From: Clostridia bacterium
GTDB lineage: Bacteria; UBA6262; WVXT01
Assembly: GCA_009619095.1 (NCBI GenBank)
Contig: WJOT01000104.1
Coordinates: 1 to 45,372 of the forward strand
Reading direction: 5' to 3'
Length of the DNA: 45,372 nt
This document shows, piece by piece, positions 717-41,077 of this stretch (positions within the stretch are counted from its first letter, which is position 1; each line of letters starts with the position of its first letter). Below the pieces are notes generated by a model. That model was not told where the DNA came from and made no database searches. It saw only the letters and a list, made by a program, of their open reading frames with translations. The position numbers and the translations under genes were made by a program.

Positions 717-1922
717 TCATTTCACTTTTACTATCCTGGGAATAACCATTACCATAGCAAGGAGAAAATAGAAAAGCATAACCACTTCCGAATCCCCGAA
801 ATTATACTGGCCCAATCCGGCAATTAGAAAAGCCGTAAACGACCCCAGAAATCCCCAGGCAATCCCTTTAAAATATCCCTGCTCCAATTCCTTAAAAATG
901 TGAAAACCAACCTTATAAATAGTTACTAAAAGCCAGAGAAATATACCCAATCCCAAAAGTCCACTGTCAACGGCCATATCTATGAAATTGTTGTGAGCAT
1001 GGCAGACCAACTGGCGACCCTTGGCTGGCTTGTACTTTGGATAGACTATTCTAAAACCTTCCCAGCCCAAACCTGTAATCGGATAATCTCTTATTATTCT
1101 CAGACTCCCTTGCCAAAAATAGATTCTATCCCCAACTGGACGCTCAGACTTAAAAGTTCCCACTACCCTTTGAGTAACCCTGGAGGGAGGGAGAAAAACA
1201 AGGAACATAGAACCAACTATAATTCCAGTTACAACCAAGAGGAGCAATTTTTTACTCCTCAAAATAGCCATAAAAATCAATCCCCCAATTAGACCAAGCC
1301 AGACACCCCGAGTATATGAGAAAATTATGGCAGTCAAGATAATCAAACCTGACAATTGTAACCAACGCTTTTCCCTTCTGGTATTACTATAAAAAGAGAG
1401 GCCAAATACCACTGGCAAGACCAACAATATATAGTTTCCGAAAGTCTGCGGAGAATTAAAGAAACCGGTACTTCTGGCAAAAGATCTTTGAACATACTTA
1501 ACATTACCAAAAAAATCGATTCTGGTAAAATGCTGAAAAATTGCATAGGCTCCTGCAATCGTAGTAATTATAATCAATATTCGGATTAATCTCTTAAACT
1601 GAGTTACATCCTTAACATTATTCACAAATAAAAAGAAAATAGATATCCAACCTAAGGTCATATAGCCTTTTAGGCTATGTTTTAAATCTACCGCCATAAT
1701 TACTCCAATGGCTGCAGCAACTAGAAAGGCAGCAATGGGTATATTCAACGGAGTTCTCATTAACTGAAATCTCCTCATCACCAACATCCCAATCACCCAG
1801 AACAGAAGAGCAAAAGATACAGCAGTCTGGGTTCCGGTAATGGAAATCGGTGACCAGAAGACAAACAAAATAAGAAACGCCCCAACCAACCAATCACAAT
1901 ATTTCACTATTCTCTCTATCAT
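717..1922 (-). CDS. O-antigen ligase / polymerase family membrane protein (Wzy_C)
   Basis: A polytopic inner-membrane protein of about 401 residues with many hydrophobic segments and, near residue 308 of this start, the CHAHNN-FIDMAVDSG motif in a large periplasmic loop. The Wzy_C/WaaL family uses such a loop to join or polymerise undecaprenyl-linked glycans. The upstream stretch VGDRIYFWQGSLRII with GLGWEGF matches the usual loop entry. A TTG at 1937 could start it, but the ATG at 1922 is preceded by a GGAAAAG sequence and reads directly into the first hydrophobic helix, so I prefer it. A second member lies at 9088-10365, so one is probably the polymerase and the other a ligase; sequence alone does not say which. 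The upstream sequence overlaps the 9-bp minisatellite. Confidence 0.85.
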   Translation of the reverse strand: MIERIVKYCDWLVGAFLILFVFWSPISITGTQTAVSFALLFWVIGMLVMRRFQLMRTPLNIPIAAFLVAAAIGVIMAVDLKHSLKGYMTLGWISIFFLFVNNVKDVTQFKRLIRILIIITTIAGAYAIFQHFTRIDFFGNVKYVQRSFARSTGFFNSPQTFGNYILLVLPVVFGLSFYSNTRREKRWLQLSGLIILTAIIFSYTRGVWLGLIGGLIFMAILRSKKLLLLVVTGIIVGSMFLVFLPPSRVTQRVVGTFKSERPVGDRIYFWQGSLRIIRDYPITGLGWEGFRIVYPKYKPAKGRQLVCHAHNNFIDMAVDSGLLGLGIFLWLLVTIYKVGFHIFKELEQGYFKGIAWGFLGSFTAFLIAGLGQYNFGDSEVVMLFYFLLAMVMVIPRIVKVK

Positions 1923-1931
1923 TTCTTTTCC

Positions 1932-1968
1932 AACCAATAAAACTAATTAAACTAATCTAAACTAATTA
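1932..1968. repeat. 9-bp minisatellite tract 1 (AACYAATNN units)
   Basis: About four degenerate copies of a 9-base unit, AAC(T/C)AATNN on the plus strand. It abuts the start region of the O-antigen ligase and the stop codon of the four-helix-bundle pseudogene. The same unit recurs at 2345-2436 and 3771-3847. Confidence 0.75.
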
Positions 1969-2333
1969 AATTTTACTCCTCAAATACGAAATAAAGTTAT
2001 TTATCCTTTTCCACAATATGTCTACTTGGTGATTTATTTGTTTCATCTCTTTTTCATTTATATAATCTCGATCCAAAGCCACATACAAATGGCTTATAGT
2101 CTCTGCCAGAGAACCCCCTGAATATCCCAAAAACTTCACAAATTCTCTATTTGAACCCTATGAAAACCCTCTGCAATATTAGCCATCACGGAAATCACTG
2201 ACCTTCTTATTTGATCCATTAAAGAAAAGTCTCTATTAAATCCTTCATTAAAAGTCAACTGATAAACTCCACTTGCAATCTTCCTTGCTTCCTGCCAAAC
2301 CTCTAACTCCTCAAATCTATTAACCTTTCCCAT
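1966..2333 (-). pseudogene. Four-helix-bundle (S23/IVS-type) protein, single-base frameshift
   Basis: The first frame reads a typical S23/four-helix-bundle start, with RFEELEVWQEARKIA and DQIRRSVISVMANIAEGFHR, then ends prematurely at 2136. Shifting frame by one base at about 2157-2160 restores the expected continuation GSNREFVKFLGYS, then SLAETISHLYVALDRDYI, ending SYLRSKI at a TAA at 1966-1968. The intact protein would be about 122 residues, the family's normal length. The defect is the loss of one G in a short G run. The family was first noticed in intervening sequences of 23S rRNA genes and its role is unclear. It may be a true pseudogene or an assembly indel. The 9-bp minisatellite borders it on both sides. 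Confidence 0.85.
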
Positions 2334-2344
2334 CTCTCTTCCTT

Positions 2345-2436
2345 AACCAATAAAACTAATGTAACTAATGAAACTAATGTAACCAATCCAACCAATAAAA
2401 CTAATGTAACTAATCTAAACTAATCTAAACTAATCT
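2345..2436. repeat. 9-bp minisatellite tract 2 (8-10 units)
   Basis: Eight clean 9-base units of the form AAC(T/C)AATNN from 2345 to 2416, followed by two 10-base variants to 2436. The stop codon of the AAA ATPase gene (2435-2437) touches the last unit. It separates the four-helix-bundle pseudogene from the ATPase gene. Confidence 0.85.
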
Positions 2437-3709
2437 ACTCTAACAGCCATTTCCAGACTGGCTTTATTTCTATTTTAATCCCCTCCCTATTTAATTGCTC
2501 CTCGTGGTCAAAAGTCAAAACAAAACCTTTTCTCAACCCTAACCATTTACAACATAGTATCAAACCGTCCAATTCTCTTCCTCTATTTTCTTCATTGCAC
2601 TCATAACATACCTGATACGCTGAAAGCCTACCATTTTCATTCATAACAAAATCGCATTCTTTTCCTTCTTCAAAATAGAAAATTTTATCCGTTTTTCTTC
2701 TCAATCTTGTAAAGACAATGTTTTCCAACAACCTTCCTAAATCTTCCGAAGAAACTCTTCTTGCAAGACCTACATCAACAAGATAAATCTTAGCTGGGTT
2801 TCTCATCCTTTTATATATAGATTCGGCAAACTTTCTTACTTCAAAAACAAGCATACTTTGAAGAAAGTATTTATAATAGCTAAATAAAGTATCTTTGGAG
2901 AAGGGTATTTTATCCTTGTATTGCTTATAAAAAGAATTAAGAGAAAGTTTTTGTGAAAAAAGAGAAAATATACCATCTAACATAATGTCTAATAGAGGTA
3001 TGTTATTCATTCTAAACCTTTCCACCAAATCTTTGAAGAACATTGAACCAAGATATTCCTTTAATATCTTGTTTTTCTCAAATTCATTTTTAGCAAAAAT
3101 AATTTCCGGAAACCCACCCCATTTTAGATAATCCCTAAAGTGCTTTTTAATATTAACCCTTTTAGAACCGTAAATAGAATTTTTATCTACAACTACATTC
3201 TTTGCTTTCAAATATTCCCTGAAAGAAAATGGAGCTATTTCCATGCTCCATGCTCTGCCCCTTAAAGAGGTATGAATTTCTTGTGGCATAATTTTGGAGG
3301 AGGAGCCAGCAACAACTATCTTTGTGTTTTCTCTTTCGCTAACTCTACGACAAAATTTTTCCCAGTCCCTAACATTTTGTATTTCATCAAGGAGAAACGT
3401 TTTTCTTCTGTCAACAAGCGGAGGGTTGAGCTCTAAAAAGGCCTCTTTCAAAACTTCAAAATCACTAATCACAAAATTTGTTAATCTCTCATCTTCAAAA
3501 TCAATATATAACGATTCATCACTGAACTTCTTAAATAAATCATAAAGCACAAATGTTTTACCACTTCTTCTTACCCCATATAATATTCCAACTTTACTCG
3601 GCTTACTCGGAAAATACACGCCTTCTCTTTTAATGATATTTTCTACCTGATTTAAGATAAATTCCCGATTGGCCACTATTATTTCTTTTAGCCGTTCTTT
3701 AGAAATCAT
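2435..3709 (-). CDS. AAA ATPase with DUF4143 C-terminal domain
   Basis: A 424-residue ATPase of the AAA_14/DUF4143 type. Walker A is GVRRSGKT (45-52), Walker B FLLDEI (about 105-110), and a sensor-1-like VVAGSSSKI lies near 132-140. The C-terminal half contains DVGLARRV, GRLLENIVFTRLRR and EGKECDFVM, the usual DUF4143 pattern, whose E-x-DF strand resembles a degenerate PD-(D/E)xK fold. The family is common and very mobile, but its cellular role is not settled. A strong sigma70-like promoter lies just upstream and the gene is bracketed by 9-bp minisatellite tracts, so it looks like an independent cassette and not part of the polysaccharide operon. Length is normal for the family. Confidence 0.9.
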   Translation of the reverse strand: MISKERLKEIIVANREFILNQVENIIKREGVYFPSKPSKVGILYGVRRSGKTFVLYDLFKKFSDESLYIDFEDERLTNFVISDFEVLKEAFLELNPPLVDRRKTFLLDEIQNVRDWEKFCRRVSERENTKIVVAGSSSKIMPQEIHTSLRGRAWSMEIAPFSFREYLKAKNVVVDKNSIYGSKRVNIKKHFRDYLKWGGFPEIIFAKNEFEKNKILKEYLGSMFFKDLVERFRMNNIPLLDIMLDGIFSLFSQKLSLNSFYKQYKDKIPFSKDTLFSYYKYFLQSMLVFEVRKFAESIYKRMRNPAKIYLVDVGLARRVSSEDLGRLLENIVFTRLRRKTDKIFYFEEGKECDFVMNENGRLSAYQVCYECNEENRGRELDGLILCCKWLGLRKGFVLTFDHEEQLNREGIKIEIKPVWKWLLE

Positions 3710-3732
3710 AACTTCATCCTTCCTGAAGGGAT

Positions 3733-3761
3733 ATAATAGGACATTTTTATCCTTCTGTCAA
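3733..3761 (-). promoter_or_regulatory. Sigma70-like promoter of the AAA ATPase gene
   Basis: Reading the minus strand, TTGACA (3756-3761) is followed after exactly 17 bases by TATTAT (3733-3738). The predicted start of transcription is about 17 bases upstream of the ATG at 3709, with a purine-rich GGAAGGA between. The match is near consensus. Confidence 0.8.
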
Positions 3762-3770
3762 GGATAATTT

Positions 3771-3847
3771 AACCAACCCAACCAATAAAACTAATCCAAC
3801 CAATGTAACTAATGAAACTAATAAAACTAATTTAACTAATAAAACTG
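3771..3847. repeat. 9-bp minisatellite tract 3 (8 units plus partial)
   Basis: Eight consecutive 9-base units of AAC(T/C)AANNN followed by a broken unit. It lies between the ATPase promoter and the 3' end of the initiating transferase gene, and is the third tract of the series at 1932 and 2345. Confidence 0.85.
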
Positions 3848-3859
3848 GTTGTTGTTTTT

Positions 3860-5221
3860 TTACCTCGCCCCTCTTCTCCGAAGAATTACCCCAATCGTTC
3901 TTAGAATAATTTCCATGTCCAGAAATAGAGAATGATTTCTAACATAGAGCAAATCGTATCTCAATTTACTTCTGGCAGAAATATCATATCTCGAATGAAC
4001 CTGCGCCAATCCTGTTATCCCGGGTCTGACCTGTAACCTCTGCACATAACCGGGAATTTCTTTTTTAAATCGCTCAACAAAGAAAGGTCTCTCCGGACGA
4101 GGACCCACAAGGCTCATATCTCCTTTAAGCACCTTTACTAACTGCGGAATTTCATCAAGGCGGGTCTTCCTCAGTATCCTTCCCAGCTTAGTAATTCGTT
4201 TATCATCACTTTTAGCAAGCACAGGACCCGTATCTTTCTCAGCATCTTTTGCCATAGACCGGAACTTATATAAAGAAAATATTCTCCCATCCTTGCCCAC
4301 CCTCTCTTGTTTAAACAGTACACGACCCTTCGACTCCATCTTTACCAAAACCATTATCAGTAGAACCAAAGGCAAGAACAGTAGTAGGGCTACCGAAGAG
4401 ACTAAAATATCGATAAGCCTTTTGATTACCTCATTAGCTCCATAAATAGGAGGAGCCATCACTTCAACCAAAGGAAGCCCATTGACATCCTCTCCATCTG
4501 TTTCACTCAAAAACATCTCATAAAGCTCGGGAACAATCTTGAATCTAACCCCCATTCCTTGACATTGAGAAATAGCATCAATCATTTCCTTTCGCGATTC
4601 GGGGGGAAGTGATATAATAACCTCATCTATCTTGTTTGCTGTTACAATTCGTCTAATATTTCTTACAGACTTAAAATGTTTAACCTCTGGCTCTGGATTT
4701 TTCTCCCCTTCCTCGGAAATAACACCGACGAGTTTATACCCCAGTTCCGGCCGCTTCTTTATATCCTCCAAAATAGACTCAGCCCCTTCCCCCCTTCCCA
4801 CAACCAAGACTCTTCTCGGCGCAACCTTTCTAAATTGAACAAGGATTATTCTCCAGCCACTAATTAGTATAAGGTTAACTAACCAGGAAATCATAAGAAC
4901 TGAGGTGGGAAACCTGCCCACTTCTCTCCTTGCTGCATAGACAGCAACAAAAGTTAACAAAGTACCCAGAGTTACTCCATTAATTGTATTATCCAGAATA
5001 TTGACCATTGTATAACTTCTTCGCCGGTCATAAAGCCCGGAAATATAAAAAGCTCCAATCATAATAATAGTAATAAAAACCCATAAATTCTGATAAGCAG
5101 CAAAATTCCTTGCCGGAATCCTTCCACCAAATCTAATCAAAAAAGCCAGAACTATCCCCGCATTAACCAGCGTACCATCAATCAAAACCGCTAATGGTAT
5201 CCCCCACTTTTTCCAAATCAT
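3860..5221 (-). CDS. Undecaprenyl-phosphate sugar phosphotransferase (polyprenyl glycosylphosphotransferase)
   Basis: This 453-residue enzyme of the WbaP/WcaJ type transfers a hexose-1-phosphate from a nucleotide sugar to undecaprenyl phosphate, the committed first step of repeat-unit assembly. The N-terminal half has about four hydrophobic helices and a nucleotide-binding-like module with VLVVGRGEGAESIL. The catalytic bacterial sugar transferase domain starts near residue 267 (KRLIDILVSS) and carries LYKFRSM, TRLDEIPQL (about 353-361, with the DE pair), SLVGPRPE and RPGITGLAQV. Length is typical. The ATG at 5221 follows GAGGG at good spacing. It heads the dense glycosyltransferase block. The transferred sugar cannot be read from the sequence. 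Confidence 0.93.
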   Translation of the reverse strand: MIWKKWGIPLAVLIDGTLVNAGIVLAFLIRFGGRIPARNFAAYQNLWVFITIIMIGAFYISGLYDRRRSYTMVNILDNTINGVTLGTLLTFVAVYAARREVGRFPTSVLMISWLVNLILISGWRIILVQFRKVAPRRVLVVGRGEGAESILEDIKKRPELGYKLVGVISEEGEKNPEPEVKHFKSVRNIRRIVTANKIDEVIISLPPESRKEMIDAISQCQGMGVRFKIVPELYEMFLSETDGEDVNGLPLVEVMAPPIYGANEVIKRLIDILVSSVALLLFLPLVLLIMVLVKMESKGRVLFKQERVGKDGRIFSLYKFRSMAKDAEKDTGPVLAKSDDKRITKLGRILRKTRLDEIPQLVKVLKGDMSLVGPRPERPFFVERFKKEIPGYVQRLQVRPGITGLAQVHSRYDISARSKLRYDLLYVRNHSLFLDMEIILRTIGVILRRRGAR

Positions 5222-25867: not shown

Positions 25868-25880
25868 ACTAACTCTCGCT

Positions 25881-25922
25881 TTTAGCTTTTAGCTTTTAGC
25901 TTTTAGCTTTTAGCTTTTAGCT
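25881..25922. repeat. Heptanucleotide tandem repeat (6 x TTTAGCT)
   Basis: Six perfect tandem copies of TTTAGCT. On the minus strand it encodes the final residues of RfbB (KLKAKS) and the stop codon (25903-25905), then continues into the gap before rfbD. A change in copy number would alter the C-terminus of RfbB. Confidence 0.92.
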
Positions 25923-26868
25923 TCTTCCACCACCACTGGTTATCCACGTACCATTTTACTGTCTCTTGCAAAGCCTTCTCAAAATCAAAGCCAGGAGTCC
26001 AACCCAGTTCCCTTTCGATTTTTGAACAATCGAGAGAATATCTTCTGTCATGACCCGGTCTATCTTTTACTGGCTGAATAAGGCTTTCCGGTTTTCCCAG
26101 TACCTTTAACACCATTCTGGTCAGGTCAATATTTCTTAACTCCTTACCGCCGCCGATATTGTAGATTTCTCCTTCTTTACCTTTATGTAGAATCAAATCG
26201 ATTGCCTCACAGTTGTCTATAACATAAAGCCAATCTCTTACATTCATTCCATCGCCATAAAGGGGAAGTGGTTTATCTTCCAGGGCATTTGTTATAAATA
26301 AGGGGATTATCTTTTCGGGATACTGGTAGGGGCCAAAGTTGTTGGAACTACGAGCCACAATGGTTGGTAAATTGAAGGTAATTCGATATGAATGAACGGC
26401 CATATCGGCTGCAGCTTTAGAAGCAGCGTATGGACTGCTTGGTCTCAAAGAATTCGTCTCTTTAAATGAGCCCTTCTCAATTGAACCGTAGCATTCATCA
26501 GTACTTATCTGCACAAACCGGGAAATATTATATCTTTTAGCTGCTTCCAGCAGGTTATATGTTCCGTCTATGTTCGTCTTAATAAAGCCTGAAGCATTAA
26601 TTATCGACCTGTCTACATGTGATTGAGCTGCAAAGTTTACTATTGCTTCAACATCTTTTGATAGCTCATCGACAATTTTTCTATCACAAATATCTCCTTT
26701 AACAAAGGTATAATTGGAATTATTTTCTATATCTTTCAGATTGTCTAAATTGCCTGCATAGGTAAGTTTATCTAAATTGATAACTTTATATTGGGGATAT
26801 TTTTTTATAATGTATCTAATAAAGTTAGACCCAATAAAACCTGCTCCTCCGGTCACCAGTAAACGCAT
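25903..26868 (-). CDS. rfbB: dTDP-glucose 4,6-dehydratase
   Basis: This SDR dehydrates dTDP-glucose to dTDP-4-keto-6-deoxyglucose. MRLLVTGGAGFIGSNFIRYI begins the NAD fold, DKLTYAGNLDNL and NFAAQSHVDRSI are diagnostic, catalysis uses STDECYG and PYAASKAAADM, and RSSNNFGPYQYPEKIIPLFI matches the substrate lobe. I choose the ATG at 26868, 6 bases after the rfbC stop, because the conserved strand begins there; an earlier ATG at 26898 would overlap rfbC. The C-terminal KLKAKS comes from a heptamer repeat. It forms an operon with rfbC and rfbD. Confidence 0.96.
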   Translation of the reverse strand: MRLLVTGGAGFIGSNFIRYIIKKYPQYKVINLDKLTYAGNLDNLKDIENNSNYTFVKGDICDRKIVDELSKDVEAIVNFAAQSHVDRSIINASGFIKTNIDGTYNLLEAAKRYNISRFVQISTDECYGSIEKGSFKETNSLRPSSPYAASKAAADMAVHSYRITFNLPTIVARSSNNFGPYQYPEKIIPLFITNALEDKPLPLYGDGMNVRDWLYVIDNCEAIDLILHKGKEGEIYNIGGGKELRNIDLTRMVLKVLGKPESLIQPVKDRPGHDRRYSLDCSKIERELGWTPGFDFEKALQETVKWYVDNQWWWKKLKAKS

Positions 26869-40596: not shown

Positions 40597-41077
40597 ATCG
40601 TCCCGATTTCCAATCGGGACTCTCAAGTGGGAGAACGTAGTTCTCCCCCCTTGCGTCCCCGATTAAAATCGGGTCCTGTTATCCCCCTCTCCCTAGAGGC
40701 TCTCCCTTTACCCTCCCCTAATTAATTTATCATGTATCGTCCTGGTTGGAAATCGGGACTGTCGACCCCCTCCTCTTGAGAGGTTTCTCCCTTAATCCAC
40801 CCTTAATTATTTATCAGCATCATCCCGATTGAGCTCGGGACTGTCGACCCCCTCATCTTGAGAGGTTTTTCCCTTAATCCACCCTTAATTATTTATGCCG
40901 CATCGTCCCGATTTCCAATCGGGCCTCTCAAGTGGCCCCGATGTTAATCGGGACCCCCTTGCGTCCCTCGACAAGCTCGGGACTGTTATCCCCCTCTCCT
41001 TAGAGGTTCTCCCATGAATCCACCCTTAATTATTTATGCCGCATCGTCCCGATTAACATCGGGGACTGTTATCTGTC
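40597..41077 (-). repeat. Tandem repeat array between promoter and tRNA-Arg
   Basis: About four and a half units, roughly 40597-40737 (long), 40738-40818 (short), 40819-40898 (short), 40899-41039 (long) and a partial copy to 41077. Each has a cgtcccgat-N-atcgggact hairpin, a ccccctct-cttgagagg segment and a ccacccttaattatttat tail; long units (about 141 bases) contain an additional hairpin. Unit length varies between about 81 and 141 bases and hairpin stems vary. No gene is seen in the 585 bases from 40597 to 41181 besides the promoter and terminator listed below. Confidence 0.85.

Follow-up and report, generated by a model that had tools for sequence, protein, structure and literature searches.

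Introduction

Short tandemly repeated heptanucleotides (STRR) have been described in cyanobacteria, and REP elements associate the gene of a small protein, RAYT, with dispersed palindromic repeats. The four-helix-bundle (4HB) protein treated here is a relative of the Avd/S23 four-helix-bundle fold, and we know of no established role for 4HB/S23 genes.

According to part of one study (PMC4990558), the rRNA intervening sequence (IVS) of C. burnetii is 428 nt long and closed by a 28-bp terminal stem, whose loop carries the S23p open reading frame (ORF), with two to three tandem heptamers (GACAGAT) before the S23p start; for its authors it is unclear what rRNA intervening sequences do and how they arose. 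The name 4HB is taken from a passage of PMC5524665. Heptamer arrays are described in sections of PMC4679880 as dispersed repeats in Beggiatoaceae, Cyanobacteria and Bacteroidetes, with TAACTGA as the Beggiatoaceae unit, and these sections find no transfer mechanism evident. A portion of PMC2700814 reports GGGACCG arrays in Geobacter metallireducens, and according to PMC4476775 heptamers of the Nostoc tRNA-Leu intron are pairing motifs within its P6b stem. ‘23S rRNA IVP’ is also listed among new associations of CRISPR adaptation modules (PMC10910872, in the part consulted). Among the top-ranked matches in open PMC articles, titles and abstract openings showed no general link between 4HB genes and arrays and no description of the cassette.

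Here we analyse a locus in which a 4HB gene of the S23 family lies between short-period arrays. The window, that is, the whole stretch of DNA analysed, comprises 45,372 nt of a Clostridia bacterium (contig WJOT01000104.1).

Results

Three 9-bp arrays in a polysaccharide operon

The locus forms part of a polysaccharide operon whose minus-strand order is Bac_transf, T3, AAA_14-DUF4143, T2, 4HB, T1, Wzy_C. The outer genes, a bacterial sugar transferase with a CoA-binding-like domain (3860..5221, minus strand) and the O-antigen ligase-like Wzy_C gene (717..1922, minus strand), belong to the host operon; we chose 1922 as the start of Wzy_C, the listed ORF starting at 1937, within T1. Between them lie the AAA_14 and DUF4143 gene (2435..3709, minus strand) and a frameshifted 4HB gene (PF05635; 1966..2333, minus strand), the N-piece and C-piece of which are in different frames. 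Both pieces exceeded the curated Pfam cut-off for PF05635 (23S_rRNA_IVP), and the frameshift may be an assembly error.

The three AAC(T/C)AATNN tracts reported in the preliminary description are real, all on the plus strand with the unit AACYAATNN, and they do separate the 4HB gene, the AAA-DUF4143 gene and the polysaccharide genes from one another. T1 (1932..1970) separates the 4HB gene from Wzy_C and precedes the chosen start of Wzy_C by about 10 nt. T2 (2345..2443), whose final units are 10-nt variants, lies between the AAA-DUF4143 and 4HB genes, 11 nt upstream of the 4HB start codon, and T3 (3771..3846) lies between the sugar transferase and AAA-DUF4143 genes. Tandem Repeats Finder placed 9-bp arrays in the window at 1932-1970, 2354-2434 (2344-2434 when read as an 18-bp repeat) and 3771-3846; the unit is thus 9 nt and not the 7 nt of the heptanucleotide STRR. 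That a unit of 9 keeps the reading frame, as had been remarked, has no bearing here because the tracts are intergenic, the exceptions being the stop codons of the AAA gene, at the T2 edge, and of the 4HB gene, at the T1 edge.

The two-unit pattern AACYAATNNAACYAAT, with at most one mismatch, had 16 matches in the window, all on the plus strand and all inside T1, T2 or T3, whereas dinucleotide shuffles had 0.27 on average and never more than 2. The three-unit pattern had 12 matches in the source assembly (G000; 1.99 Mb, 132 contigs, 86% complete), every one within the same three tracts, and its backward-read control had none there. It was absent from 59 other genomes, including five that share the genus or order. 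A search of the source genome for further genes bracketed by the 9-mer, the check originally proposed, found none, and the assembly contains only one 4HB gene and only one DUF4143 gene, the AAA gene itself. The window has, in addition, a perfect heptamer array at 25878-25923 (GCTTTTA, 6.6 copies) at the 3' end of an ORF, the only 4HB gene of the assembly being elsewhere, and an 82-bp tandem repeat at 40658-40913 (about three copies, with CCCGATT..AATCGGG palindromes) near three tRNA genes.

The 4HB gene of the window had a tandem array of period 9 within 150 nt on each side. The upstream array scored 37 and the downstream one 12 (cut-off >11), the latter in a flank that starts 14 nt before the gene end. 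Both arrays have the same DNA orientation (direct layout). The first reading of the locus was that both genes are cassettes swapped by homologous recombination between tracts, and the repeat-gene-repeat-gene-repeat layout agrees with this, as does the direct similarity of the 4HB flanks (score 70). The 9-mer occurs at no second place in the assembly, which argues against such an exchange. We found no empty counterpart of the window insertion in the sister genomes G004 and G005, where the sugar transferase is about 60% identical and the neighbours differ, and no rRNA match at the gathering score in the window or in the 19 cassette loci searched.

Arrays flank 4HB genes in general

A profile search found 4HB (PF05635) matches in at least 49 of 145 sampled genomes, the window's own included. 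The first set examined was drawn from the best matches listed, roughly best first, and covered 29 genus codes; 84 HMM domain rows gave 70 genes after removal of secondary domains, short flanks and duplicates, and 69 after leaving out L295, which has a run of N in its flank. An array was defined as a 6-10-nt periodic tract within 150 nt of the gene. Flanks were called inverted when the match between the upstream flank and the reverse-complemented downstream flank scored at least 28 (about the 99% level of unpaired flanks).

Arrays were present upstream of 48/69 genes, downstream of 44/69, on both sides of 31/69 and on at least one side of 61/69. The flanks were inverted in 40 of the 69 genes and direct in 9. 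Any one of these signs was found for 66/69 genes, the three lacking an array, inverted or direct sign being L312, L318 and L321, and dinucleotide shuffles exceeded the array cut-off in 0.8% of cases upstream and 0.4% downstream. With the cut-offs fixed beforehand, a second set from further down the match list (56 genes used of 61 loci offered) gave a sign for 43/56. All 8 plasmid 4HB genes tested (7 distinct) had an array on at least one side. The ORFs neighbouring 4HB genes showed a sign in 7/44 cases, and HEPN genes, of similar size and searched in the same 145 genomes, in 0/28 (30 loci, two of them without a usable gene). In a 392-kb stretch of the small genome G064, 3 of 377 ORFs had arrays on both sides, and the sole convincing case was a 4HB gene; the stretch holds two further 4HB genes, neither of them bracketed on both sides. 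A looser script counted 41 arrays in it, the majority of which have no 4HB gene. Array bracketing is therefore general for 4HB genes, mostly as inverted pairs of degenerate 6-10-nt arrays.

DUF4143 genes behaved differently. None of 26 had an array on either side or inverted flanks, and the direct-similarity cut was passed by 2/26; among 53 control ORFs of the DUF4143 loci, these 26 included, 7 had an array on either side and none had inverted flanks. DUF4143 genes are thus generally without arrays, which speaks against exchange between tracts and against the earlier proposal that the AAA-DUF4143 gene is mobile.

The converse search, from the 9-mer to the gene, covered at least 118 stretches of other genomes with three 9-mer units, among the matches listed. 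With the full-length 4HB profile, 3 of the 118 stretches listed contained a 4HB gene, at 1.7 kb from the 9-mer in L070, 0.6 kb in L076 (the nearest) and 4 kb in L114; the weaker query with the window's 59-residue piece found one only in L070. No relative of the window AAA/DUF4143 protein was found among these 118 stretches, and homologue searches of the viral contigs that match the 9-mer pattern found no 4HB gene. The stretches were of two kinds: homogeneous copies, which often fall inside open frames, and degenerate copies between genes. An adjacent inverted pair was present in 12 of the 118 listed, and 8 of these 12 came from Desulfobacterales, Desulfobacteraceae or Desulfatibia. The 9-mer alone is no predictor of the gene, whereas the 4HB gene does predict arrays. 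The homogeneous copies, with their frequent location within open frames, are what would be expected if the tracts were ordinary slippage minisatellites lying near genes by chance; given the signs at 66/69 4HB genes versus 0/28 HEPN genes, and at 43/56 in the second set, we consider this explanation extremely improbable, and T3 is the tract for which it may still hold.

Some 4HB loci had arrangements of other kinds. Genome G013 contained 19 partial 4HB matches (L430-L432), several as close head-to-head pairs, and at L431 two 4HB-like frames face outward from a short hairpin with no array by eye. At L438 (G014 contig 64) the 4HB cassette, which has 7-mer arrays in inverted layout, has a tRNA gene on either side.

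Array period follows the 4HB protein

Where arrays were present on both sides, the two periods agreed in 28 of 31 4HB genes. The nearest 4HB protein neighbour at another locus shared the period in 47/61 cases, compared to a shuffled mean of 32.9 (P 0.0004), in a test that includes genes of one genome. The 4HB tree required 16 period changes; 1000 shuffles averaged 22.15 and never fell below 17. When each family was represented by a single gene, 6 changes were needed versus 8.4 when shuffled (P 0.01). This tree comprised 116 proteins of 126 genes plus the window piece, is short with many forks open, and lacks, among others, the 9-mer user L304, which the length filter left out. The period, which may be 7, 8 or 9, tracks this tree.

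The closest relative found for the window gene, L291, belongs to another phylum by the grouping of the search database and is 68% identical to the N-piece over 59 residues. Directly oriented ATTRGTTNN units, the same unit and layout as in the window, lie on either side of it, and among 126 flank sets it was the best match to the window array (49, compared to 33 for the next and a median of 18). The arrays of L291 are short, with scores of 7 and 10 that fall under the cut-off of >11, and its direct score was 37. Solved structures related to L291 are 2gsc and 2rld. A 59% identical relative, L443, the one locus from a single-protein query of IMG/VR, showed no array, inverted or direct sign.

The match between period and protein tree is also what one would expect if the arrays were selected binding sites through which the 4HB protein controls its own gene and those nearby, and were not the ends of an element. 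The arrays sit just before start codons, and heptamer arrays elsewhere have been proposed as regulatory (in parts of PMC4679880 and PMC2700814). The plasmid sites described below bear on this explanation.

Presence and absence of the unit on plasmids

Plasmid records with 4HB genes were mostly cyanobacterial (42 records with one query). One intergenic site of a conjugative plasmid, site A, was filled in three records, those of two identical Trichormus variabilis strains and of Scytonema, by a unit consisting of a CAGRANT array, a 4HB gene and an inverted array. Six plasmids were gapped at this site, and the three inspected (Aulosira laxa plasmid3, Nostoc carneum and Microchaete) were without the unit and about 97% identical around the site. 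In T. variabilis the unit measures 423 bp and lies between two copies of GTAAT (5-bp direct repeats). The net gain was 428 bp in T. variabilis and 414 bp in Scytonema, which has two heptamers fewer. The sole open frame of more than 51 codons in the unit is the 4HB gene, with no recognisable transposase, and as read from the empty plasmids there was no array at the site before insertion. A Nostoc record (C052) has a decayed copy at the same place.

On Aulosira laxa plasmid2 a related unit with like arrays lies between other genes; its DNA is 84% identical over the aligned pieces, and the similarity stops at the arrays, while plasmid3 of the same organism has the empty site A. Three other Nostocales plasmids (L501-L503) carry the arrays of site A around a short loop with no 4HB gene. 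Three states of site B were seen: empty, filled with a 4HB gene, and holding an array but no gene. The cas6-cas4 junction of one Pseudanabaena is occupied by a direct-array 4HB cassette; in a second Pseudanabaena it contains just a short array with a different unit. Sites B-D are replacements or diverged, and site E (Stanieria) resembles a deletion derivative, as are found at related elements (L385 and L500). Clean insertion was seen at site A only, and the 5-bp repeat there, at an AT-rich site, may be due to chance.

Gene and arrays are one unit, present or absent as a whole, in the plasmid element; for the window, the same would apply by extension. Of the preliminary claim that the genes move, the 4HB half is borne out to this extent, as array-4HB-array units are present in some and absent from other near-identical plasmids, and the AAA-DUF4143 half is not. 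Movement by recombination between tracts would be compatible with the deletion derivatives at L385 and L500. The cleanest site, however, is a whole-unit insertion between 5-bp direct repeats at a place free of arrays, and we regard exchange between tracts as very unlikely. The same records speak against arrays that are regulatory binding sites and not element ends: the arrays come and go with the gene at site A, the similarity stops at the arrays at the second site (Aulosira plasmid2), and gene-free copies with other loops exist. We believe that explanation to be rather unlikely.

Two further observations were made on these plasmids. In L502, L503 and L392 the place of the 4HB gene is taken by a shared insert of about 100 nt, which looks foldable; the arrays of L392 have a different unit despite the common insert. 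This non-coding insert occurs at 42 places in 32 plasmid records and had no Rfam match at E up to 1. The 4HB cassette of a Pseudanabaena galeata plasmid (L374) separates cas6 from cas4 in a type I-D CRISPR-Cas operon. Cassettes landing in cas operons might explain the reported CRISPR association of 23S rRNA IVP.

Folding and co-occurrence with reverse transcriptase

The whole stretch in the window folded better than 100 of 100 shuffles (z -3.62), and the array-array duplex of the window was equalled by 19/200 shuffles. The site A unit folded with z -2.31, and 1/100 shuffles was as good. The sense strand paired better in 53 of 67 strong cases, with nearly the same bias in shuffles; as a sign of pairing at the RNA level, this strand asymmetry yielded z-scores that did not differ once composition was taken into account (P 0.88).

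Spread via an RNA intermediate would call for a reverse transcriptase acting in trans, with the 4HB protein in an Avd-like role and array growth by template slippage. The kinship of the 4HB fold with Avd fits such a route, and so do two loci at which 4HB genes adjoin reverse transcriptase genes, L319 (G092 contig 17) and L494 (G036 contig 278); these two 4HB genes are perhaps retroelement accessory genes. Against it, reverse transcriptase (PF00078) had no match in the window assembly (86% complete), and among the matches listed it was present in 16/49 genomes with 4HB versus 25/96 without, so that 4HB genomes are not clearly enriched in reverse transcriptases. Four genomes rich in 4HB (G064, G066, G098 and G134, with 5 to 12 matches each) had no reverse transcriptase match. 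We judge spread by this route to be quite unlikely.

Discussion

The bracketing of 4HB genes by arrays is general, the period of the arrays tracks the 4HB tree, and filled and empty sites exist on plasmids; for these reasons we interpret the 4HB gene of the window and its tracts as, most likely, a mobile cassette with kinship to the rRNA intervening sequences. The segment T2-4HB-T1 is probably a decayed copy of an insertion cassette of about 0.4 kb with one 4HB gene and a short-period array at each end. Counting against this reading, the window arrays are direct, while 40/69 4HB genes have inverted flanks. T3 may be a gene-free array, the AAA gene lying between it and the cassette, and nothing shows that the AAA gene moves.

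We know of no element-encoded enzyme for the 4HB cassette. The route that we prefer, and consider most likely, combines recognition of a hairpin by the protein with insertion by host enzymes. The 4HB protein would recognise the paired arrays as a hairpin of RNA or single-stranded DNA, a putative binding activity, and host enzymes would integrate the cassette with a short target duplication. The arrays would later grow and shrink by slippage. The window cassette, of the 9-mer branch, would have inserted by such a route into the polysaccharide operon, after which its gene decayed. Once transcribed as part of the operon, the hairpin would be trimmed in the manner of an rRNA intervening sequence, and this trimming would make the insertion tolerable.

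A broader proposition, which we put forward tentatively and as somewhat doubtful, is that there is a widespread class of mobile elements lacking transposase, integrase and reverse transcriptase, with the 4HB S23/IVP genes as its protein-coding members. The ends of these elements would be interchangeable short-period arrays with a period set by the protein, STRR-type hairpins would be their gene-free copies, and the rRNA IVS would be a special case lodged in rRNA. As far as sequence comparison can indicate, our work links a common 4HB gene to a class of short-period repeats of unsettled origin. If 4HB genes and heptamer repeats form one element family, the role of the gene and the origin of the repeats could be tested together, and there would be a mobile element of about 0.4 kb without a recognisable recombinase. 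A 4HB gene annotated within an operon (cas, tra or polysaccharide) may then be a passenger.

Compared to known systems, the cassette shares a related four-helix-bundle fold with Avd of the diversity-generating retroelements, and differs in that the window assembly has no PF00078 reverse transcriptase. It resembles REP/RAYT in combining a small protein gene with dispersed repeats, but the one long ORF of the site A unit is the 4HB gene and not a transposase. With the STRR and other heptamer families of Nostocales and elsewhere it has in common short-period arrays, some of them hairpin-forming, dispersed between genes, and gene-free copies on Nostocales plasmids share the unit of a 4HB cassette; the window unit, in contrast, is 9 nt long, and the consulted portions of the STRR papers make no mention of a 4HB gene. 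The 23S rRNA IVS of Leptospira and Coxiella lies in an rRNA gene, whereas the window and the 19 cassette loci have no rRNA match, and it differs also from 4HB cassettes in that their array unit varies from gene to gene and is arranged directly in the window. The IVS and the cassettes are alike in the S23p/PF05635 family to which their protein belongs and, for the cassettes with inverted flanks, in the placement of its ORF between complementary ends.
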